A DNA stretch of 64,000 nt from Luteolibacter ambystomatis (GTDB taxonomy: Bacteria; Verrucomicrobiota; Verrucomicrobiia; Verrucomicrobiales; Akkermansiaceae), in NCBI RefSeq assembly GCF_018137965.1, contig NZ_CP073100.1, positions 3,669,754 through 3,733,753 on the forward strand, written 5' to 3'. Of this stretch, positions 48,013 to 57,872 are shown in pieces. The translations under genes and the position numbers were made by a program. A model generated the notes under the pieces. The model made no database searches. It worked only from the letters and a program-made list of their open reading frames with translations, and was not told the DNA's origin. Position 1 is the first letter of the stretch; each line of letters begins with the position of its first letter.

Positions 48013-49668
48013 ATGAAATCCCGTCTTCTTACCCTCGCCGGCCTCGCGCTGGCTTCCGCCGTGCCCGCGTACGGCGTCAAGACCTCCGAGCCCTCCTACC
48101 TCACCGCTTCCCCCGGCTCCGATTTCACTATCGAGCCGATCCTGACCGTGGGCGACCGCGTGCCGCTTACCGGTGGCAATGCTTCCGACGACTACGCCTT
48201 CGCCGGCATCCCGGACGCCATGGGCCTCTGGCAGGACTCCGTCAGCGGCCAAAACGTGTTGTTCGTCGCCCACGAAATGACCAGTGGCGACCACTCGAAG
48301 CCGCTGGCCACCCAGCCGCGTTTCAAGGGCGCGTACGTTTCCCGCTACATCCTCTCCAACACCGGTGACATCGTCTCCGGTGCCCCGGCCCATTCGAAGC
48401 TCTTCGCGGAAAACACCCTGGTCGCCAACCGCGCGCCGCAGGAAGGCGACGCCAATGCCTTCACCCGCTTCTGCTCCGGCCACTTCGCCGGCACCCGCGA
48501 TGGACTCGACCGCCCGTTCTTCTTCGCCAACGAAGAAAGCCCGAGCGGCACCTACCACATCAACGGCCCACAGAGTGTCGCCGTCGTCGATGGTGAGATG
48601 CACACGCTGCCCGCGCTCGGCCGCGTCGCCCGCGAGAACACCGTGGTCATGCCGCGCCGTGACGCGATCACCGCGATCGTCTCCACGGAAGACAACGGCT
48701 CCCCGTCCTACGTTTACCTCTACGTCGGCACCAAGCAGCGCCGCTCGGACAGCGCTCTCGACAAGAACGGCCTGACCGGTGGCAAGGTGTATGTCCTCGC
48801 CGGTCGTGACGCCCAGCACAACGAAGGCACCTTCACCAGCGGCACCCTCAACACCAAGTGGGTGGAGATTCCGGGCGCAGCCAGCCTAAACGTCTCTCAG
48901 ATCCGCACCGCCGCTGACAATGCCGGCGCCTTCGGTTTCGTGCGCGTGGAAGACGAAGAGTTCGACCCGAACCAGCCGACCCGCAGCATGTTCTTCACCA
49001 CCACCGGTGGCAGCGGCCCGAACCTGCTCGGCCGCGTGTATGAGCTGACCTTCAACCCGACCAACCCGATCGCCAACGGCACGCTGAACGTCATCTACAA
49101 CGGCGACACCCGCGTGACCCCGGGCGGCACCTACAATGGCACCGTCGGCAAACTCCTCGGCACCCCGACCGGCAGCCTCGGCACCTACTCCGGTGGCGTG
49201 CTGAACAATGGCGTGGACGGCCCGGTGAGCGCGGACAACCTCGCCATCAACGACGACGTCATCGTGCTCTGCGAAGACCGCAACAGCCCGGCCGACGCCG
49301 TGTTCGCCAAGTACGCCCGCAATGGCGGTGCCTGGACCCTCGACCGCCACAACAACTACGCGCCGAAGCTCCAGACCACCTTCAACTACGCCGCCCTCGA
49401 AGCGCGCGACGCACACGCGCCGTTCGCCGATGCCGGCCTGTGGGAGACCTCCGGCATCATCAACACCGATGACGTCTTCGGCAAAGGCTCGTTCGTGATC
49501 AACGTCCAGGCCCACACCAAAACGGTGATCCTGAACGCCGGTGGCACTGGATCCAGCATCCGCTCCAACTGCCCGGGCGACACCGTTGGCACCACGCTGA
49601 CCCGCTCCGAAGCCGTCACCCGCTACGTCGAGGACGGCCAGGTGCTCATCATTCGCCCGGTGAACTGA
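48013..49668 (+). CDS. Secreted PhoX-like (DUF839) protein
   Basis: The 551-aa product has a signal peptide (MKSRLLTLAGLALASAVPAYG). Its long beta-propeller body includes FAGIPDAMGLW, VLFVAHEMTSGDHSKP, VRVEDEEFDPNQPTRSMFFTTTGG and LAINDDVIVLCEDRNSPADAVF, which match the general layout of the PhoX/DUF839 calcium-dependent phosphatase fold (HE followed by xxEDxxxD and FTTT). The usual Tat signal of PhoX is absent and there is no PEP-CTERM tail. It could be an alkaline phosphatase or an inactive relative. It is probably co-transcribed with the DUF4394-like gene. Confidence 0.68.
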   Translation: MKSRLLTLAGLALASAVPAYGVKTSEPSYLTASPGSDFTIEPILTVGDRVPLTGGNASDDYAFAGIPDAMGLWQDSVSGQNVLFVAHEMTSGDHSKPLATQPRFKGAYVSRYILSNTGDIVSGAPAHSKLFAENTLVANRAPQEGDANAFTRFCSGHFAGTRDGLDRPFFFANEESPSGTYHINGPQSVAVVDGEMHTLPALGRVARENTVVMPRRDAITAIVSTEDNGSPSYVYLYVGTKQRRSDSALDKNGLTGGKVYVLAGRDAQHNEGTFTSGTLNTKWVEIPGAASLNVSQIRTAADNAGAFGFVRVEDEEFDPNQPTRSMFFTTTGGSGPNLLGRVYELTFNPTNPIANGTLNVIYNGDTRVTPGGTYNGTVGKLLGTPTGSLGTYSGGVLNNGVDGPVSADNLAINDDVIVLCEDRNSPADAVFAKYARNGGAWTLDRHNNYAPKLQTTFNYAALEARDAHAPFADAGLWETSGIINTDDVFGKGSFVINVQAHTKTVILNAGGTGSSIRSNCPGDTVGTTLTRSEAVTRYVEDGQVLIIRPVN

Positions 49669-49688
49669 TTCTCCTTCCCTGCCTCCCA

Positions 49689-49721
49689 ACCGGTCGGGCT
49701 CCAAAGGCCCGGCCGGTTTTT
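49689..49721 (+). terminator. Rho-independent terminator after PhoX-like gene
   Basis: An 11-bp stem ACCGGTCGGGC/GCCCGGCCGGT (one T-G wobble) is followed by TTTTT. Confidence 0.82.
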
Positions 49722-49753
49722 CCGTTCCTCTCACCTTCGTTTTTTTCGTCTCC

Positions 49754-51508
49754 ATGCGCCGCCTTCCGCTCCAAGGTTCCTTGATCTGGCTCGAAGCCGT
49801 GGCCTTGGCCATCATCGGCCAAACGACCGGCCAGCCATGGTTGCTGCCGGTGGCCGGATTGCTGGCCCTGCTGGCCTCGCTGCTTTCGCGCGGCCTTTCC
49901 ATCGCACTGCCCGCCGCGCTGGCGCTCTGCGGAATCTGGCTGGTTCATGGTCGGCTCCTTCCCACCGTACCGCTGCCGGTCTTTTGCGCGGTGCTCGCTC
50001 TGGTGCTGGGCACGGCCTTCGCGTTTGCCGCCATTCTCTCCGGTCTAGGCAAAGGGCGGACAGTTGATCCGCTGCAAGACCGTCTCCACCGCCTGGTGGT
50101 GCTCTTTCACTTTCTCGCGGCAGGCGTATTGCTCGCCGGACGCTTCCCGGGATTCATGCCCGCGCTGTGGCTTGGCTGGAGTGCCTGTGTGGTGTCCCTG
50201 ATCTTCACCGCGGACACGCTGGTGAAGCTGCTCGCGCGACTCTATACGCCACGCCGCAACTGGGGCACGCTGGCCGCACCAGGTGCGTTTTTCTTTTTCC
50301 GCTGGCTGGGTCCGGAATGGCGCGCGTGCCTGCCGGTGGCCCCCAGGGACGAGGATGATTCACTCCGTCTCCAGGAGATGTGGATGTGGCCCACGGTCCG
50401 CAAATCCCTCCCTGCCTTGATGGCCACCACTGCCGCACTGGTGTGGCTCGCCACCGGCTTGCACGAGATTCCCGGGGAAAGTGCGGGCGTGCGTCATCGC
50501 TTCGGCACTTGGGAAGCTGCGCCGCTTGCTCCCGGGCTGCACACATCGCTGCCATGGCCACTCGGCGGCATCGAGAAAGTGGACACCCGCACGGTGCGGG
50601 AAACCGTGCTCGGCTTCCGCGCCGATCCCGGCCAGCCGATCCTGTGGGAGCGTCCGCATTACGAGGACGAGCAGAGATCGCTCGTGGGAGGGGGTGATGA
50701 TTTCCTTTCGATCTCCGTGCCGGTCTTCTACCGCGTCGCCGATCCCGCCGCCTATCTCCGCTCGTCCACCGATGCCACCGGTCTTTTGCGGTTCGCCGCG
50801 GATCGCGTGCTGTTGCGCCTGACCCTGCATCTGCCTGCTTCCGATCTGATGACCGGCGCGCGCGAACCCCTGCGCAAAAAGTTCCAACAGGAGCTGCAAC
50901 AGGAACTCGATGCCCGTTCCAGCGGCCTGCATATCGAGGAAGTCTATTTCCGTGACATCCATCCGCCTGTGACGGTGGCTCCCACTTTCCAAGAGGTGGT
51001 ATCCGCGATGGAGGACAAGGAGGCCTTCATCCACGAGGGCGAGGAGTATCGCAACGACCAACTCACCCGCGCGAAAGGCGATGCCATCCAGCTCGTCACA
51101 ACCGCCACTGCCTCCGCTGAGAACCGCCTGTCGCGCACACGCGGCGAGTCTTCCCGCTTCAACAGCCAGCTCGCCGCGTGGCGGGCATCACGGCCGCTGT
51201 ACGAACTCCGCGAGGGCTTCAAGGCCTTCGACCTCACGCTCGCAGGCGCGAAGAAGGCGGTCTTCGATGAAAAACTGCGCGGCTCGATCCCGACGCATCT
51301 CGACCTGCGCAAGGTGCTCAATCCCGATCTCCCACCGAGCCAGAACATCGCTCCGCAATCGCTGGTGCCACGTCCGCCGAAATCCCGCGATGCCTTCGAT
51401 CTCAGCATCGATGGCTACCTTCGCACCGACCGCGGCGAAGTCCCCGCCATCCGCATCGGCCCGGAAGATCAGGACAACCTTCTCAACGCCACGCCTCCCA
51501 ATCCATGA
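49754..51508 (+). CDS. HflK-like SPFH protein with polytopic N-terminus
   Basis: The 584-aa protein has about six hydrophobic segments in residues 1-240 (SLIWLEAVALAIIGQ, PWLLPVAGLLALLASLLS, FCAVLALVLGTAFAFAAIL, LVVLFHFLAAGVLLAG and others). An SPFH/band-7 domain follows (ESAGVRHRFGTWEAAPLAPGLHTSLPWPLGGIEKVDTRTVRETVL, then FLSISVPVFYRVADPAAYL) and a coiled-coil region (EGEEYRNDQLTRAKGDAIQLV) ends the fold. Classical HflK has a single anchor helix, so the polytopic head is unusual. The ATG is 85 bp after the PhoX-like stop, past a terminator, and the stop overlaps the next start. It heads the SPFH/P-ATPase cluster. Confidence 0.88.
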   Translation: MRRLPLQGSLIWLEAVALAIIGQTTGQPWLLPVAGLLALLASLLSRGLSIALPAALALCGIWLVHGRLLPTVPLPVFCAVLALVLGTAFAFAAILSGLGKGRTVDPLQDRLHRLVVLFHFLAAGVLLAGRFPGFMPALWLGWSACVVSLIFTADTLVKLLARLYTPRRNWGTLAAPGAFFFFRWLGPEWRACLPVAPRDEDDSLRLQEMWMWPTVRKSLPALMATTAALVWLATGLHEIPGESAGVRHRFGTWEAAPLAPGLHTSLPWPLGGIEKVDTRTVRETVLGFRADPGQPILWERPHYEDEQRSLVGGGDDFLSISVPVFYRVADPAAYLRSSTDATGLLRFAADRVLLRLTLHLPASDLMTGAREPLRKKFQQELQQELDARSSGLHIEEVYFRDIHPPVTVAPTFQEVVSAMEDKEAFIHEGEEYRNDQLTRAKGDAIQLVTTATASAENRLSRTRGESSRFNSQLAAWRASRPLYELREGFKAFDLTLAGAKKAVFDEKLRGSIPTHLDLRKVLNPDLPPSQNIAPQSLVPRPPKSRDAFDLSIDGYLRTDRGEVPAIRIGPEDQDNLLNATPPNP

Positions 51509-52521
51509 ACCAGGATTCCTGCAACCGCCGTGTGACCGCGCTGCGGCTCACCCTCATTCTCGCCGCCGGACTTGCGGTGGTCTTCTCGGCCTGCGGATTC
51601 ATCCTCAGTGAAACCGAGAGCGGCATCGTGCTGCGCTTCGGCAAGCCGGTGCGCGTGATCGAAAAATCCGGTTTCTATTTCCGCCTGCCACCGCCGGTCG
51701 AGCGAGTCGTCCGCATCGACCGCCGTCTCCAGCATGCGGAAATTCGCATCAGCGAGACCCTCACCAAGGACCAGCGCAACGTCATCGTGCCGGTGTATTT
51801 TACCTGGCGCGTCTCGGACCCGCTGCTGTTCCACACCGCCGTGCATGACGTGGAGAATGCACGGTTGAAGCTCGACGCGTTGGTGACCAGCTCGCGCAAC
51901 TCCGTGCTCGGCCGCCACGACTTCGGCGATCTGGTGGCGGAGGAGGACAAGGGCGCCTCACTGCCGGAGATCGAGAACGAGATGCTTGCTCTCTCGTCCG
52001 ATGATGCCAGCCATCACCTCGGCATCGAGTTGCTGGCCACCGGCGTCACCCGCATCCAACTGCCGGAAGCGAACACCGAATCGGTCTTCCGCCGCATGCG
52101 TGCCGAGCGCAAACGCGAGGCCACCCAGTATCGCGCCGAGGGTCGCGCCCAAGCCACCGAGATGAAGGCCGAGACCGACAAGGAGGCGACCGGCATGCTC
52201 GCCGAGGCGAAGCGCAAGGCCGAGGAAATCCGCGGTCAGGCCGAAGCGGATGCCTCCTCCATCTATGCGCAGGCGCACGGACAGGACCCCGCGTTCTATC
52301 GTTTCCTCCGCGAGCTCCAGAGCCTGCGCACGGTGGTGGACAAGAACACCACGGTGGTGCTCGACACCGGCGTGGCTCCCTTCCAGTGGCTGAAGTCGGT
52401 CGAAACCGAAGCCGCTCCGCCCATCACCGAGCCGCCCGCTCCGAAACCTCCGGAGAAGCCGGACAACGTGGCCAGCAGCAACGCACCGCTGCCCACGCTC
52501 ATCGAACCCGCCCGCCAGTGA
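51505..52521 (+). CDS. hflC: HflC-like SPFH protein
   Basis: The 338-aa protein has one N-terminal anchor (LTLILAAGLAVVFSACGFIL, residues 14-33). The SPFH domain follows (ETESGIVLRFGKPVRVIEKSGFYFRLPPPVERVVRIDRRL, then VPVYFTWRVSDPLLF), then a long Glu/Ala/Lys coiled coil (RKREATQYRAEGRAQATEMKAE). The tail is diagnostic of HflC: IYAQAHGQDPAFYRFLRELQSLR and VVLDTGVAPFQWL. HflC with HflK forms a membrane cage that modulates FtsH proteolysis. The ATG overlaps the upstream stop (4 nt) and its stop overlaps the next ATG (TGATG). No ftsH gene is nearby. Confidence 0.92.
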   Translation: MNQDSCNRRVTALRLTLILAAGLAVVFSACGFILSETESGIVLRFGKPVRVIEKSGFYFRLPPPVERVVRIDRRLQHAEIRISETLTKDQRNVIVPVYFTWRVSDPLLFHTAVHDVENARLKLDALVTSSRNSVLGRHDFGDLVAEEDKGASLPEIENEMLALSSDDASHHLGIELLATGVTRIQLPEANTESVFRRMRAERKREATQYRAEGRAQATEMKAETDKEATGMLAEAKRKAEEIRGQAEADASSIYAQAHGQDPAFYRFLRELQSLRTVVDKNTTVVLDTGVAPFQWLKSVETEAAPPITEPPAPKPPEKPDNVASSNAPLPTLIEPARQ

Positions 52522-53615
52522 TGAAGAAGCACGAGCTTCGTTCCGAAGGCAGGGCGGTGGAGGCCCTGCTGATCCTGTTGAAGCATCTCACCGCGCATGC
52601 CCGCTGGGTGTTCGTGGCGCTGCTGGCGTTCTATGCGCTCTCCGGCATCCGCACCATCCAACCGCAGGAACAGGCGCTGGTGCTGCGTTTTGGCAGGCTC
52701 CAGCCGCAGGTCCATGGTCCCGGTCTTCTGGTCGGCCTGCCCGATCCTTTCGACAAGGTGCTGCGCTTTGAAACCGGCAAAGATCTTGGTCTCTCACTCG
52801 ACCGCTGGGCGACGACGGGGATGAAGCTGGACGATCCGAACAAGGTGGTGGTGCCGGACGCCGCCACACTCGAGCGGGAAGTACAGGAGTCCGGCAACCG
52901 GCGCGGCAAGAGCATCGAAGACAAGCAGGTCATCGGCAATTCGCTCGATCCCCTCTCGTCGGGTTACACACTCACGGCCGATACCAACGTGATCCAGGGG
53001 CGCTTCCTGTTGCGTTACCGCATCGAGGATCCCTTCCGCTTTGCCTCGGCGGGAAGCAACATCGAGGACCTGCTCGGCTGCATGGCCTATCGCGCGCTGT
53101 CGCAGGAACTCGCGCGGCGGAAGATCGATGCCGCTCTCACCTCGGACCGCCGTGATCTCGCGGAGGCCGCCGCGATGTTGATCCGCAAGGAAGCAGATCG
53201 CCTCCATCTGGGAGTCCGCATCTCGGGCCTGGACATCCGCGAATTGTCACCGCCCTCACAAGTGCTGCCCGCCTTCGAAGACGTGGTGAACGCGCGCCAG
53301 TATGCCAAGACGATGCACGAGAACTCCCGCCAGTACCGCGGCGAGACACTCGCCAAAAGCGAAGGAGAAGCCGCATCCATCGTCCATCGCGCCGAAGGAT
53401 TCGCCGCGGGAATCGTGAGCGATGCTTCCGGGGAGGCCTCCTCGTTCAACGCCATGCTCGCCACCTACCGGCGGGCTCCGGCTCTGGTGTCCCACCGGTT
53501 GCTGCGCGAAACGCTGGATACCGTGATGGGCCAGATCCATTCCCGCACGCTCATCCCCGTGGATCAATCGAAGCCATCGTTGATTCTCGAACCTTCTCCC
53601 GAACAGGCCCGCTGA
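52521..53615 (+). CDS. Second HflK-like SPFH protein
   Basis: The 364-aa product has an anchor helix at about residues 33-48 (ARWVFVALLAFYALSGI) and an SPFH domain (IQPQEQALVLRFGRLQPQVHGPGLLVGLPDPFDKVLRFE). A divergent central stretch follows (residues 85-140), then YTLTADTNVIQGRFLLRYRIEDPFRFA and a C-terminal coiled coil with EGEAASIVHRAEGFAAGIV. The Val-Pro-to-Ala/Glu-rich order resembles HflK. ATG 52521 is preferred because it overlaps the previous stop; the longer frame to 52386 lies inside that gene. It ends 2 nt before the P-type ATPase start, so all four genes are one operon. Confidence 0.9.
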   Translation: MKKHELRSEGRAVEALLILLKHLTAHARWVFVALLAFYALSGIRTIQPQEQALVLRFGRLQPQVHGPGLLVGLPDPFDKVLRFETGKDLGLSLDRWATTGMKLDDPNKVVVPDAATLEREVQESGNRRGKSIEDKQVIGNSLDPLSSGYTLTADTNVIQGRFLLRYRIEDPFRFASAGSNIEDLLGCMAYRALSQELARRKIDAALTSDRRDLAEAAAMLIRKEADRLHLGVRISGLDIRELSPPSQVLPAFEDVVNARQYAKTMHENSRQYRGETLAKSEGEAASIVHRAEGFAAGIVSDASGEASSFNAMLATYRRAPALVSHRLLRETLDTVMGQIHSRTLIPVDQSKPSLILEPSPEQAR

Positions 53616-53617
53616 TC

Positions 53618-55555
53618 ATGTCTTCCGCTGACATTTCCGACGACAATCCCCACGCGCTGGATCGCGAGACCCGCGCACGGCTGCGCCTGCTCTTTGCCGC
53701 CAGCGCGTTGATGCTGGCCTCGATGGTGATCGGCTGGCTGCGCCCGCAGGAAGAAGGCGTGCGTGGTGCGCTCGCCTTGGCAGGCACCTGCCTCGTCGCG
53801 GTGCCGATCCTGCGTGGCGTGATCACCGCCATCCGTGCCACCGGTTTCGCCGCAACCCAGTTCTACATGGATCAATACGTGGTGCTGGCCTTGGCCGCGT
53901 GCGTGGCCACCGGCAAGTATCTCACCGGCGGACTGGTCGCGATCGTGCTGCTGTTCGGCCAGATGTTGGAAGAACGTACCACACTGGGCGTCGAGCTGGC
54001 GCTCTCGAAACTGCGCGTGCTGAACCGGTTGCGCGCTTTCCTGATCCGCAATGGCCGCGAGGAGGAAACCGACGCCTCCACGCTGGTGGCGGGCGATGAA
54101 GTACGCGTCCGTCCCGGCGAATCGATCCCCGCCGATGCGGTGGTGCTGGAAGGCCATGCGATGGTGGACCAGAGTCGGATCACCGGAGAATCGATGCCGG
54201 TCGAGGTGGGTCCGGGTTCGGAAATTTTCGCCGGCACATCGAACCTCAACGGCACTTTGCTCGCACGCGTGAAGGGTGCCGGCGGAGAGACGGTGATGGG
54301 CCGGGTGCAAAGCATCATTGAGGAAGCAAAGGAATCCGAGGCTCCGATCATCAGCCTCGCCGAAGACTACGCCCGCTACTACACGCCTCTCATTCTACTC
54401 ATCGCGGCGAGCGTGTTCTTCTTCAGCCGCGATATCGAACGCGCCATCGCGGTGATGGTGGTGAGCATCCCCTGCGCCTTCGTGCTGGCCAGCCCTTCCG
54501 CGATGGTGTCCGCCATCGCCGCAGCCTCGCGCATGGGCCTGCTGGTGAAGAGCGTGCGCCACCTCGAATCCGCCCGCATGGTGGACACCATCGTCTTCGA
54601 CAAGACCGGCACGCTGACCCAAGGGAAACTCGAACTCGAAGACACGCTGGTTCACGATTCCTCGCTGGATGCAGCCATGGTCCTGCGTCTCGCGGCTTCC
54701 ATCGAAAGCCACTCGAATCATCCAGTCGCAAAGGCTTTGGCTCAAGCCATCCCCGCTGAAGAGCAGGCCGCCGTCGAAGCCTTCACCGAGCACCCCGGCC
54801 TCGGCCTGGAAGGTGAAATCGAAGGCCGGAAAATCCGCATCGGCCGTGCTTCATGGCTCGCCGCCAGCGGCATCGGCATCTCTCCGGAAGCCTCCGGCCA
54901 TTCACGCCACAGCCTTGTGCTGATGGCAGTGAATGGGCGCCATGCCGCCACGTTCCTTCTTGCCGACCGCATCCGCCCCGAGGCTGGCATCACTCTCGAC
55001 CGCCTGCGCTCGCTCGGCATCGACCGCTTCATCATCCTCAGCGGCGACCGCGAGGAGGTCGTCAGCCACATCGCCGCGCGCACCGGCATCACCACTTGGC
55101 AGTCCGGCTGCCTGCCGGAAGACAAGCTCGCCTACATCCGCAGGCTGCGAGCGGACGGACAACGCGTGATGGTTGTTGGAGACGGCCTCAACGATGCGCC
55201 CGCTCTCGCCGAAGGCGACGTTGGCGTGGCCATGGGAGCGCTGGGCAATGACGTAACGATCCACACCTCGGACGTGGCCCTGATGTCGAACGACCTGCGC
55301 CGTCTGCCGGATCTGCTGCTGCTTTCCGCACGCACCGTGGGAGTCATCAACCAGAACCTGTTGTGCGGTTTCCTATTCATCGTGATGGCGATCACCCTGT
55401 CATCGCTGGGTTACGTCAATCCGATCGCCGCGGCCTTCTTCCATGAATTCAGCGCGTTCTTCGTGATCTTCAACAGCGCCCGCCTGCTGCGCTTCGATGG
55501 CATGGAAGACGAAGCCGCTTCCGAACCGGAGAGCCTGCCCGCCCATGCGACGTGA
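53618..55555 (+). CDS. P1B-type (heavy-metal-type) P-type ATPase with IPC membrane motif
   Basis: The 645-aa ion pump has the actuator loop ITGESMPVEVGPG (TGE), the phosphorylation motif FDKTGTLTQG (Asp328), the P1B-specific SHSNHPVAKAL (HP dipeptide) and VVGDGLNDAPALAEGDVGVAM. Paired membrane segments lie before and after. The transmembrane metal-binding motif reads SIPCAFVLASP (Ile284-Pro285-Cys286), where Cu, Zn and Cd pumps have CPC and some Co/Fe pumps have SPC. No N-terminal HMA domain or His-rich tail is present. It follows three SPFH genes by 2 bp, and its last codons overlap the next gene by 11 bp. The transported ion is uncertain. Confidence 0.92.
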   Translation: MSSADISDDNPHALDRETRARLRLLFAASALMLASMVIGWLRPQEEGVRGALALAGTCLVAVPILRGVITAIRATGFAATQFYMDQYVVLALAACVATGKYLTGGLVAIVLLFGQMLEERTTLGVELALSKLRVLNRLRAFLIRNGREEETDASTLVAGDEVRVRPGESIPADAVVLEGHAMVDQSRITGESMPVEVGPGSEIFAGTSNLNGTLLARVKGAGGETVMGRVQSIIEEAKESEAPIISLAEDYARYYTPLILLIAASVFFFSRDIERAIAVMVVSIPCAFVLASPSAMVSAIAAASRMGLLVKSVRHLESARMVDTIVFDKTGTLTQGKLELEDTLVHDSSLDAAMVLRLAASIESHSNHPVAKALAQAIPAEEQAAVEAFTEHPGLGLEGEIEGRKIRIGRASWLAASGIGISPEASGHSRHSLVLMAVNGRHAATFLLADRIRPEAGITLDRLRSLGIDRFIILSGDREEVVSHIAARTGITTWQSGCLPEDKLAYIRRLRADGQRVMVVGDGLNDAPALAEGDVGVAMGALGNDVTIHTSDVALMSNDLRRLPDLLLLSARTVGVINQNLLCGFLFIVMAITLSSLGYVNPIAAAFFHEFSAFFVIFNSARLLRFDGMEDEAASEPESLPAHAT

Positions 55556-56144
55556 GACTGGCATCGCCGCTGTATGTGCGTGCGGAGCGGCAGTCTGTCT
55601 GCTCTGGCCATGGCTGGAACAAGGCCGTGGAATATCGCCCTCGCCCGTCACCGCCGCAAGTCCCGCGAGACCGAAACGCGAGCGGGAGAATTTCTGGCAG
55701 GACGCCCGGATTCCTGAACCGGGCCACTTCCGCGAACCTTCCGCCCTCGCCTCGACTGCGGGTGCCGCTACGGGGATCGATCACCGGACCCGGATCGGAG
55801 AACTGCTTGAAAAGGGTGACTCCAATGGCGTGACGATCGAACTGGTGGACTGGTTTTCCACCGATCCCGCAGGTGCCCGCGATTGGCTGGAAACCCGGGA
55901 ATCCCTGGGCTTCTGCCAACCCGCCCTGAAGATGGTGGCGGTGTCCTTCGCCACCCGCGGCGATTGCGATCTGGCCTTGGAATGGACCGAGTTGCTGGAA
56001 TCTCCGGCTGAACGTGACGATGCCGTCGCACGGATCTACTCGACGGGCTTCGTCTCCGGCCGTTTCTCCTCCGAGGATCTCGCCGCAGCTCCGCTCACGG
56101 ACGAGCACCGCCGCGCCATTCTCGAAGGCAAGGCCAACGATTGA
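55545..56144 (+). CDS. Unknown membrane-anchored protein following the P-type ATPase
   Basis: The 199-aa product begins with one hydrophobic segment containing two Cys (TGIAAVCACGAAVCLLWPW, residues 5-23) and a Pro-rich linker. A helical repeat-like C-terminal domain follows (VTIELVDWFSTDPAGARDWLETRE, PALKMVAVSFATRGDCDLALEWTELLESPAERDDAVARIY), which resembles the tandem helical repeats seen in other Verrucomicrobia exported proteins. Its ATG at 55545 lies inside the ATPase gene, so it is coupled. The longer frame to 55497 is less likely. The function is unknown. Confidence 0.7.
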   Translation: MRRETGIAAVCACGAAVCLLWPWLEQGRGISPSPVTAASPARPKRERENFWQDARIPEPGHFREPSALASTAGAATGIDHRTRIGELLEKGDSNGVTIELVDWFSTDPAGARDWLETRESLGFCQPALKMVAVSFATRGDCDLALEWTELLESPAERDDAVARIYSTGFVSGRFSSEDLAAAPLTDEHRRAILEGKAND

Positions 56145-56163
56145 CCGACTCCCCCTCTCCGCC

Positions 56164-57090
56164 ATGAAGGAACCCAGCCGGGGCAAACAACTCGAGGACA
56201 TCATCGCCGGATTCCGCGGCACCCGCATCCGCAGATCCCGGCGTGTGGCCCCTTCTCGCGAGGTGAAGCGGGTCGATCCATTCGTTCGCAAGGTGCGTCT
56301 CATCGCCACCGGAGCGATTGCGCTCATCGTGCTCTGCATCGCGTCTTTCATGATCCTGAGGCAGGCGAAAACCGAAAGCGGCACGCAGGTTTTCACGCCT
56401 CCTGTCGCCGTGGGTAAAGCTGCGGAAGTCACCACCCAAAAATGGTCGCAGGACCATAGCGCCGGCACCGCCGCTTCGGATTGCCTCAAGACCGTGATGG
56501 CCTTGGATGATTCGACACTCACCCATCTGCGTCCGCTCGATGGCATCAAGGATCGGCTCCGCGAACACCGCCAGGAATTGGAAGAACTCGCCGCCAAGCC
56601 GTGGTCGGTGGGCCCGTTCCGCGTGGTGCAGGACAGCTACCTGATGCTGCCGGTGGAGTTCAAGGGAATGGGCATGCGCGTGGCTTGGTTCGAGCGCACG
56701 GCAAAGGGAGAATGGTTGCTCGATCTGGATTCGTTTCTCGGCATCAGCGATGTGCCGATTCCCTCCCTGGCATTGAGCAAGGAAGAAGGTCCCTTCCTGC
56801 TGCGCGGCTACTCACGACCAGGAGGCAACATCCGGCCGGACACGCTGGAACTCCGCGCACCTGTGGGTGAAGGAAAAGTCCGCCTGAGATTCGACGGCGA
56901 TGCTGACGGCAACCTCGACCTCATCACCGCGGTGCGATCCACCGAGTGTCCGGTGATGCTGATGGTGAGCCGCCTGAAAACACCTCTCGATGGATGCGCG
57001 TGGAAAGTGGACCGCGTGCTCGGCAAGGAGTGGTTCCTGCCTGTGGATCGGCGTCTGAAGCTGGAGAATTCGCAGGCGTTCACGCGCTAG
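56164..57090 (+). CDS. Unknown single-pass membrane protein at the end of the SPFH/ATPase cluster
   Basis: The 308-aa product has a basic cytoplasmic N-terminus (GFRGTRIRRSRRVAP) and one helix at about residues 43-63 (RLIATGAIALIVLCIASFMIL). The external domain contains PLDGIKDRLREHRQELEELAAKPWSVGPFRVV, LMLPVEFKGMGMRVAWFERTAKGEWLLDLDSFLG and the C-terminal VRLRFDGDADGNLDLITAVRSTECPVMLMV. ATG 56164 is 19 nt after the previous stop. I recognise no domain. Two Cys (near residues 104 and 282) face the outside. A role with the SPFH proteins or pump is inference from position. Confidence 0.7.
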   Translation: MKEPSRGKQLEDIIAGFRGTRIRRSRRVAPSREVKRVDPFVRKVRLIATGAIALIVLCIASFMILRQAKTESGTQVFTPPVAVGKAAEVTTQKWSQDHSAGTAASDCLKTVMALDDSTLTHLRPLDGIKDRLREHRQELEELAAKPWSVGPFRVVQDSYLMLPVEFKGMGMRVAWFERTAKGEWLLDLDSFLGISDVPIPSLALSKEEGPFLLRGYSRPGGNIRPDTLELRAPVGEGKVRLRFDGDADGNLDLITAVRSTECPVMLMVSRLKTPLDGCAWKVDRVLGKEWFLPVDRRLKLENSQAFTR

Positions 57091-57179
57091 GTGTGCCATC
57101 GCCTGAAAATGCGCCAAGATGTCCGTTGAGGTCCGCTCTTCCAGAAACTACTCTTGGCAGACCTAATGGAATCAACGTC

Positions 57180-57872
57180 ATGTCACACCAACTGACAATC
57201 ATTCTGGTTCATGGATTCTGGGGCGGTGCCGCCCACTGGGGAAAAGTGATCCCCGAACTCTCCCGCAAGGGATACGCGAACATCCACGCCGTGGAGAATC
57301 CGCTGACTTCACTGGCGGATGATGTCGAGCGCACCCGCAAGATGATCGCGGCGCAGAAGGGGCCGGTCCTTCTGGTCGGACATTCCTACGGCGGCGCGGT
57401 GATCACCGAAGTCGGCAATCATGCGAACGTGGTGGGTCTCGTCTATATCGCCGCATTTGCACCGGATGCGGGCGAGAGCCCAGGCAGCATCAGCGCGACC
57501 AATCCACCGGCGGGAGCTGCGAATCTGCTCGCCGACGACGACGGCTACCTCTGGATCAAGGCCGACAAGTTCCACGAAAGCTTCTGCCAGGATCTGACTC
57601 CCGAGGAAGGCCTTGTGATGGGAGTCACCCAGAAGGCTCCGCTGGCCGGCACCTTCTCGGACAAGATCACGGCACCGGCATGGAAACACAAGCCATCCTG
57701 GTACCAGATCTCAAGCGAAGACCGGATGATTGCTCCAGAAAACCAGCAATTCATGTCCGGACGGCTCAATGCCAAAAAAATCATTACGCTCCGCGCCAGC
57801 CACGCATCACTGGCTTCCATGCCGGTGGAGGTCGCGGCATTGATCGACGAGGCTGCGGCCACGACTTCCTGA
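57180..57872 (+). CDS. Alpha/beta hydrolase
   Basis: The 230-aa protein has the fold's opening strand and oxyanion motif LTIILVHGFWGGAAHW, the nucleophile Ser69 in LLVGHSYGGAVIT and a C-terminal His in LRASHASLASMP. An acidic residue in SSEDRMIAPENQQFM near residue 182 completes a plausible triad. No signal peptide is present. ATG 57180 is chosen because it heads the first strand; the longer frame back to 56946 lies inside the upstream gene. Esterase or related activity is likely; the substrate is unknown. Confidence 0.87.
   Translation: MSHQLTIILVHGFWGGAAHWGKVIPELSRKGYANIHAVENPLTSLADDVERTRKMIAAQKGPVLLVGHSYGGAVITEVGNHANVVGLVYIAAFAPDAGESPGSISATNPPAGAANLLADDDGYLWIKADKFHESFCQDLTPEEGLVMGVTQKAPLAGTFSDKITAPAWKHKPSWYQISSEDRMIAPENQQFMSGRLNAKKIITLRASHASLASMPVEVAALIDEAAATTS

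Follow-up and report, generated by a model that had tools for sequence, protein, structure and literature searches.

A conserved operon of Verrucomicrobiota suggests a dedicated module of SPFH proteins and a metal transporter

Within a 64,000-nucleotide (nt) stretch of the Luteolibacter ambystomatis genome (NCBI RefSeq assembly GCF_018137965.1, contig NZ_CP073100.1, positions 3,669,754 to 3,733,753; the whole stretch is referred to as the window in the following), three tandem genes for SPFH proteins, here called S1, S2 and S3, are followed by a gene for a P1B-type ATPase. These four genes constitute a conserved unit, and in other lineages the S1-type subunit is fused in a single chain to a metal transporter. 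We consider it rather likely that the operon encodes a dedicated SPFH–metal-transporter module, in which S1, S2 and S3 form a dome that corrals the P1B-type ATPase. For few bacterial SPFH complexes is the physiological cargo known; in the present case, it appears to be written in the genome, by linkage as well as by fusion, and for three unrelated transporter families, which makes the idea of SPFH domes as transporter compartments directly testable in bacteria. The individual parts are known and a relative, the hmtA cluster of Pseudomonas aeruginosa, has been partly studied; what is new here is the proposal of SPFH complexes whose transporter cargo is genetically fixed.

All four genes lie on the forward strand. 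S1 (g1, 49754–51508, 584 amino acids) is overlapped by 4 nt by S2 (g2, 51505–52521, 338 amino acids), which is joined to S3 (g3, 52521–53615, 364 amino acids) in a TGATG junction, and the ATPase gene (g4, 53618–55555, 645 amino acids) begins after a gap of 2 nt. The Band_7 domain (PF01145) is found in g1, g2 and g3 with E-values of 4.4e-10, 1.4e-26 and 2.5e-15 and scores of 40.3, 94.1 and 57.4 bits, all above the gathering score of 23.6. S2 is HflC-like, as it reaches 172.6 bits with the HflC model TIGR01932 (cut-off 134.4), and S1 and S3 score 113.8 and 137 bits with the HflK equivalog model TIGR01933, below its cut-off of 159.4. The product of g4 matches TIGR01525 with 504.2 bits (cut-off 346.25) as well as the Pfam families E1-E2_ATPase and Hydrolase. 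An earlier note on this DNA, made from the sequence alone, had described a six-gene operon that also included the downstream genes g5 and g6. Its six forward-strand open reading frames (ORFs) and their spacings (4 nt, TGATG, 2 nt, 11 nt and 19 nt) all match, and so does the succession of three tandem SPFH genes and a P1B ATPase. The six-gene system itself had to be given up, since none of the ORFs in the fetched loci is homologous to g6, and g5 is confined to the window's clade; the conserved unit is the four genes S1-S2-S3-P1B-type ATPase.

The linkage of these genes is extensive. Among 40 loci chosen by their ATPase, which were hand-picked across the score list of a search of the phylum and include the outgroup L111 (L numbers denote fetched loci), S1-S2-S3 stand directly upstream of the ATPase on the same strand in 34. 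When all 72 loci holding the ATPase are considered, with the window, its paralogue and L042 among them, the order S1-S2-S3-ATPase is found in 65, or in 61 of 68 distinct loci after removal of four pairs that represent the same contig twice; 29 of the 72 were found via S1 and thus do not test its linkage independently. The 36 named loci were fetched through an S1 scan of reference genomes, and all but four of them are labelled as Verrucomicrobiota lineages, including L131 from Luteolibacter pohnpeiensis, a member of the window's genus. The seven exceptions to the order comprise an S3 that overlaps the ATPase ORF (L103, L140), a contig end (L091), an uncalled S1 (L102), a trio located downstream (L096), one locus in which no SPFH gene was found (L110) and the outgroup L111. 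In L119, L137 and L141, the fetched stretch ends ahead of any visible ATPase, and the fetched stretches of L142 and L145–L147 hold no P-type ATPase, with matches elsewhere in these genomes of at most 387 bits or none. Around 30 control P1B loci, no SPFH gene was found within flanks of about 1.5 kb. Given 34 of 40 and 61 of 68 distinct loci versus none of 30 controls, the association of SPFH and ATPase genes is not due to chance.

Phylogenetic analysis supports the same grouping. A tree of 113 ATPases places all 70 linked ones together in a single clade (0.943). With seven ATPases from Pseudomonadota plasmids added, the 70 linked proteins and six from plasmid-borne cassettes make up an exclusive clade with a support of 1.0, the six being nested among the 70; the seventh, encoded beside the fusion gene of L248 described below, falls outside. 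Eight ATPases from Acidobacteriota that are fused to HflK form a clade of their own (0.875) near the linked clade, and one group, again with a support of 1.0, unites them with the 70 linked ATPases and the unlinked pumps of L111 and L033. The linkage in relatives, whose absence had been set beforehand as the finding that should count against the idea of a joint system, holds in the phylum and on Pseudomonadota plasmids. The ATPase group is present at 448 bits or more in 130 of 337 genomes of the phylum, as judged by score alone outside the fetched loci. The cassette is nevertheless patchy, as just 2 of 60 sampled genomes of the window's family hold the ATPase at high score. The window's genome itself carries a second, diverged S1-S2-S3-ATPase copy (L041, C1:810000–826000) with 49–66% identity.

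An action of the SPFH trio on metal transporters is indicated most strongly by the fusion of three unrelated transporter families to the same SPFH subunit. In eight fetched Acidobacteriota loci, a P1B ATPase and an HflK protein are encoded in one ORF of 1015–1054 amino acids, in all eight cases followed by HflC- and HflK-type genes, that is, by S2 and S3. A full-length P1B+HflK profile detects this architecture in 19 of 396 Acidobacteriota genomes, at 1584 bits or more versus at most 589 for P1B-only matches; three of the 19 matches count one stop codon within them. Pfam recognizes both parts in each of the four fetched fusions that were checked, and the fusion protein of L207 lies above both curated cut-offs. 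The second family is that of the cation diffusion facilitators (CDFs), which are joined to HflK in one chain in L142, L145 (Ca. Abyssobacteria), L146 (Ca. Eisenbacteria), L147 (Thermoanaerobaculales) and L201–L206; among the latter six, L201 and L205 were checked with Pfam and the other four rest on the fusion hidden Markov model (HMM). An annotated protein of this kind, above both curated cut-offs, is encoded on a plasmid of Aquibium oceanicum that is predicted to be conjugative (L248). Lastly, an ArsP_1 permease is fused to HflK in L214 and L215, with L214 above the cut-off of NF033936, the SO_0444 Cu/Zn efflux family. In 16 of 16 fused loci checked, S2 and S3 adjoin the fusion gene.

The S1 of the window carries what may be the remnant of a transporter. 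According to its AlphaFold model (mean predicted local distance difference test (pLDDT) score 76.5), S1 consists of an N-terminal six-helix domain (residues 1–173, positions 49754–50272 of the forward strand), one further helix and an HflK-like SPFH domain, the latter resembling the HflK structure 7vhq_E with a Z-score of 16.5. The six-helix domain may share the fold of CDF transporters, with ZnT3 (8xn1_A, Z 11.7), ZnT1 (8xmf_A, Z 11.6) and YiiP (8f6h_B, Z 11.0) matched at root mean square deviations of 3.1–3.5 Å. Furthermore, a profile of 39 S1 N-terminal domains matches one of ten CDF domains from the CDF-HflK fusions with a probability of 97.5–97.7 over 222–223 columns, whereas ten control profile pairs reach at most 2.0. 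At the same time, the S1 domain differs from CDF transporters in its fusion to SPFH and in its lack of a metal site: the columns of the CDF site (H/DxxxD in helices 2 and 5) are lost and mostly hold Leu, Ala, Val, Gly and alike, and two or more [HD]xxxD motifs occur in just 1 of 39 S1 domains versus 9 of 10 CDF fusions. A match to PF01545 is found in 4 of 15 S1 relatives. We read the N-terminal domain of S1 as a CDF domain that has turned into a structural part; the link to CDFs is drawn because of the CDF-HflK fusions and the fold.

The SPFH part of S1 has a signature of its own. A W-x3-5-H-..-E motif is present in 83 of 91 S1 rows, in which contigs fetched twice are represented repeatedly, versus 2 of 92 S2 rows and 5 of 92 S3 rows, and it is not found in E. 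coli HflK or HflC. The individual columns are kept in 86 (W298), 77 (H302), 78 (E306) and 84 (H403) of the 91 rows; in E. coli HflK, the first three columns are gaps and the fourth holds an Arg. A His-rich loop was also considered as a hallmark of S1 and rejected, since just 6 of 39 S1 proteins have five or more His within some 30-residue stretch. A His- and acid-rich insertion beside the conserved Trp was observed in L078, L083, L085, L087, L108 and L092; the window's S1 has a single His in the stretch where other S1 proteins bear the His insertion.

The ATPase combines core motifs of the P1B type with an atypical metal motif. DKTGTLT (D328–T334) and HP (H368–P369) are conserved in 43 of 43 aligned sequences, the N-terminus is short and free of a CxxC metal-binding domain, and by our reading of the helix list of its AlphaFold model (mean pLDDT 75.9), the protein is predicted to have eight membrane helices. 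The best PDB matches of the model include 4bbj, 4umw and 7qbz, with P1B structures of copper, zinc and cadmium pumps among them. The metal motif in the membrane helix of P1B ATPases is CPC, SPC or TPC, and g4 instead has IPC, at residues 284–286 (54467–54475, forward strand). Among 33 unlinked pumps, the motif is CPC in 19, SPC in 13 and TPC in one, and all eight fused Acidobacteriota pumps have CPC. The substrate of g4 is uncertain because IPC replaces CPC or SPC. In L083, L085, L087 and L108, the linked ATPases have VPA in place of CPC and thus no cysteine in the membrane motif at all.

Because S1 is fused to transporters elsewhere and carries a CDF-like domain in the window, the trio is most likely a dome around a metal transporter. 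We propose that S1, S2 and S3 would form a hetero-oligomeric dome, as HflK/HflC do, and that this dome would stand on the periplasmic face of the inner membrane and corral the P1B-type ATPase in a walled membrane patch. S1 would tie the dome to the transporter, since elsewhere the S1 chain includes the transporter itself (P1B, CDF or Cu/Zn-efflux permease); in the window, its CDF-like domain without metal site is probably a docking platform for the separate ATPase. With eight (P1B) or six (S1) helices ahead of the HflK helix, the SPFH domain would come to lie in the periplasm, into which the E. coli HflK/C complex also extends (PMC12048511; this and the other published work is cited from excerpts of the papers). 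The dome would thereby cover the periplasmic mouth of the transporter, where it could provide the pump with its own lipid patch, shield it from other traffic or allow metal to pass through a closed chamber. By analogy to hmtA, the ATPase would move a transition metal, with Zn and Cu as the likeliest candidates, and it may do so inwards, as reported for HmtA, or outwards. The core of the earlier suggestion, an SPFH scaffold that surrounds a metal pump or controls it, finds good support in the conserved linkage and the single-chain fusions, both revealed by comparison, although not in its six-gene form. A more general version, in which such modules represent a class of machines with an SPFH dome, a transporter slot filled either by fusion to S1 or by the docking of a separate P1B-type ATPase to a dead CDF domain, a closed periplasmic chamber for metal handover and a relay of the Trp, His and Glu residues of S1, is a tentative extension that we regard as rather unlikely to hold in full.

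The closest studied relative is the hmtA cluster of P. aeruginosa (PA2434–PA2439), in which PA2439 (HflK family), PA2438 (HflC) and PA2437 (HflC family) accompany PA2435, the P-type ATPase importer HmtA (PMC4542158). It resembles the window in that HflK-family, HflC and HflC-family genes lie beside a P1B-type ATPase gene; compared by gene list, it differs in that the window's ATPase has IPC and the window's S1 a CDF-like domain. In a znuA mutant, PA2439, PA2438, PA2437 and PA2435 are up 9.0-, 10.6-, 14.4- and 5.6-fold, respectively (PMC4542158), Zur shifts the PA2439 promoter (PMC8531726), and the PA2438 and PA2439 proteins increase on zinc depletion in a study that notes the HflC/HflK genes near HmtA (PMC11761036). 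In the excerpts of PMC4542158 and PMC11761036, the genes are set side by side and no complex is proposed, and in the excerpts HmtA figures as an importer on its own. The module proposed here could explain why HflK/HflC-type genes form part of this zinc-responsive cluster. The earlier note knew of no described function for the gene combination; the same kinds of genes and their response to zinc depletion have, in fact, been described for the hmtA cluster (PMC4542158), and it remains true that no SPFH-transporter machine has been put forward in what we found, as the titles and abstract openings listed in searches of open-access literature yielded no proposal of an SPFH–P1B system. One paper names both SPFH and P1B terms, in its excerpt in unrelated table rows (PMC10434189), and was set aside.

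Stomatin domes lie on the cytoplasmic side of the membrane, and their cargo is not known to be genetically linked or fused to them. They nonetheless provide a precedent for SPFH domes that wall in transporters, as a stomatin dome encloses AQP1 and UT-B (PMC12407830), with the difference that this system is eukaryotic and built from one SPFH protein. A second precedent is the enclosure of FtsH by HflK/C. The E. coli HflK/HflC-FtsH complex, which extends into the periplasm (PMC12048511), shares HflK- and HflC-type subunits with the window's trio; unlike it, the window has three SPFH genes instead of two, an additional six-helix domain in S1, no link to FtsH and a pump as partner. The mycobacterial PacL1-CtpC system is similar in that a P1B-ATPase gathers into membrane clusters together with a scaffold-like protein from its operon, but PacL1 has one transmembrane domain, is not described as an SPFH protein in the excerpts and forms foci independently of flotillin (PMC9374683).

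Several observations weigh against the proposed module or parts of it. As for the CDF-like domain, the fold matches (Z 11.0–11.7) stay below the value of about 13 and thus in a range where bundles of helices can match through a shared arrangement. The S1-domain profile does not match the single E. coli CDFs FieF and ZitB (probability 0.3–0.8), which the CDF-HflK profile does find (95.5–96.9), and the window's S1 matches none of the CDF Pfam models, PF01545 included; canonical CDF membership of S1 was therefore rejected, also in view of the lost metal-site columns. Moreover, profiles of the S1 domains from plasmid cassettes match the window's family (90.5–95.2) and not the CDF set (1.5–3.3). 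As for the motif in the SPFH part, column 302 is not specific to S1, since His is the commonest residue there in S3 as well (21 of 92 rows), and of the two ArsP fusions, one is without the motif. The 66 distinct linked ATPases have CPC in 23 cases, IPC in 22 and the cysteine-free VPA in four; with IPC in the window, CPC in no more than these 23 and VPA in four, the substrate, judged from sequence, may not be a soft metal. The linkage has its gaps, too: L110 carries an ATPase of the clade and no SPFH gene was found there, and the trios of L145 and L146 stand beside Mrp/MinD-ferredoxin ATPases, with no P-type ATPase in the fetched stretch. Finally, the hmtA analogy is not uniform. One study describes hmtA mRNA as constantly low and not zinc-repressed (PMC8531726), proteomics on zinc depletion shows a rise of HmtA that misses a p-value of 0.05 (PMC11761036), and a review names hmtA as the exception to the binding of uptake genes by Zur and wants the import direction confirmed (PMC10393844). 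Likewise, deletion of paFlo5-7, an SPFH trio of P. aeruginosa that we take to be the SPFH genes of the hmtA cluster, has mild effects, namely about 20% less biofilm and attenuated virulence in Galleria (PMC13086221); that paper contains no word beginning with 'ATPase' or 'hmtA'.

The alternative that fares best concerns the direction of transport, with the ATPase pumping a toxic metal out into the dome. Copper-exporting and zinc-transporting pumps are found among the solved P1B relatives, and the transporters fused to S1 elsewhere include efflux families (CDF and the Cu/Zn-efflux-type permease). We place an exporting module somewhat short of an even chance. Against it, hmtA, the closest studied cluster, is reported to encode a Zn/Cu importer and is up on zinc depletion (PMC4542158), subject to the confirmation that the review calls for (PMC10393844), and the Paraburkholderia cassette described below lies near zinc uptake genes.

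It is improbable, by comparison, that the trio is an ordinary HflK/HflC complex regulating FtsH, with the ATPase as a client or a co-expressed gene. It would fit this reading that the window's genome encodes Band_7 proteins that resemble HflK/HflC well just in its two SPFH-ATPase operons; the four others are a FloT-like protein (161 bits, cut-off 700), a weak HflC match (21.8 bits) and two without a match to an SPFH-family NCBIfam model. In addition, S2 passes the HflC model, and FtsH is encoded elsewhere in the genome (C1:5176). Yet FtsH is linked to neither operon, S1 and S3 stay under the HflK equivalog cut-off, fusions tie S1-type HflK to transporters, and an association with one ATPase subfamily would not be expected of a housekeeping regulator.

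We also consider it quite unlikely that the ATPase has come to serve a non-metal substrate and that the dome organizes a larger export complex, possibly with ABC-type exporters. The repeated loss of the CPC cysteines among linked ATPases points in this direction, as do the ABC ATPase gene that directly follows the P-type ATPase in 23 of 43 phylum loci and the weak ABC-2 permease matches nearby in four. In the window's clade, however, the ATPase is not followed by an ABC gene of this kind, and H609 and E610 are nearly invariant; the fused and plasmid-cassette relatives retain CPC, some of them with His-rich N-termini. Least probable of all is a shared metal-starvation regulon whose members act separately, the SPFH proteins answering general membrane stress: co-induction of the hmtA cluster requires no physical contact and the P. 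aeruginosa SPFH deletions have mild phenotypes (PMC13086221), but against it stand the conserved order of overlapping or abutting genes and the single-chain fusions, which occur in 19 of 396 Acidobacteriota genomes as well as in several other lineages.

The ABC-transporter ATPase genes that directly follow the P-type ATPase score above 400 bits and are found in L078–L080, L082–L085, L087–L090, L093–L095, L098–L103, L106, L108 and L110; the HMM-based count of 23 combines 17 loci counted by script with six, taken from the table, whose ORF overlaps the end of the ATPase. The ABC-2 permease matches near the P-type ATPase lie under the curated cut-offs in the four loci examined. Since no ABC gene follows the ATPase in the window's clade, the ABC transporter was rejected as part of the window's system. 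The CDF-HflK trio of both L145 and L146 has flanking genes of the Mrp/NUBPL, MinD-ferredoxin and radical-SAM types, in L146 also with a NifU domain, and this neighbourhood hints at a link to iron-sulfur clusters or iron.

The cassette is also found on mobile DNA. It is annotated, with all four genes, on plasmids of Klebsiella aerogenes (L244), Burkholderia ubonensis (L245), Rhizobium tumorigenes and Paraburkholderia sprentiae, and an ORF search detects it, unannotated, on two more Rhizobium plasmids. The plasmids of K. aerogenes and B. ubonensis are predicted to be conjugative, so SPFH-transporter cassettes are present on plasmids for which transfer is predicted. In P. sprentiae, zinc ABC transporter genes lie within 6.3 kb upstream of the cassette and a gene for the copper chaperone PCu(A)C is 0.7 kb away. 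Overall, S1 of the window's type occurs in 10 of 72,556 plasmid records; the plasmid searches for S1 matched 46 and 54 records, from which eight loci were fetched. Six of these hold the four-gene cassette (L244–L247, L250 and L251), L248 has the trio with the CDF-HflK fusion and a P-type ATPase 2.3 kb further on, and L249 has hflK-hflC, with no third SPFH gene or P-type ATPase annotated.

Downstream of the conserved unit, g5 (55545–56144, forward strand, 199 amino acids) overlaps the ATPase gene by 11 nt and is followed after 19 nt by g6 (56164–57090, forward strand, 308 amino acids). The earlier note called both unknown membrane proteins. They do belong to no known family as far as Pfam (at an E-value of 0.1) and NCBIfam are concerned, without a match to NfeD, the partner type of SPFH-NfeD pairs, but each has a single hydrophobic segment near its N-terminus, so that a polytopic membrane nature is not evident. 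Homologues of g5 are found in 13 further distinct loci, all in the window's clade and directly 3' of the ATPase (within 252 nt); an ORF in L104, returned by an iterated g5 search on the strand opposite to the L104 ATPase, was discarded as a likely chance match. As the fetched loci yielded no homologue of g6, this gene probably stands outside the conserved module.

The gene ahead of S1 (48013–49668, forward strand) encodes a homologue of PhoX-like secreted phosphatases (Pfam PhoX, 5.7e-12). Between the two genes, a strong, terminator-like hairpin of 13 pairs, nine of them G-C, with a T tail is located at 49688–49718 (forward strand), and the PhoX-like gene is probably transcribed separately from the operon; a consensus scan for sigma-70-type promoter-like sites found none in 49500–57300, which tells little in this phylum. 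In 13 distinct loci, a PhoX-like homologue immediately precedes S1 in the same orientation, namely in the window and, within its clade, L072, L073, L074, L112–L117, L119, L121 and L144. In the stretch around the second copy of the cassette, L041, neither a PhoX-like nor a g5 homologue was found. The PhoX-like protein may be a metal-dependent enzyme that is served by the module, or merely a conserved neighbour. Finally, in E. coli K-12 (506000–516000, L222), copA and cueR lie close to fetA, an iron exporter gene, and to the SPFH-NfeD pair qmcA-ybbJ, a proximity that is possibly due to chance and possibly represents another link between SPFH proteins and metals.

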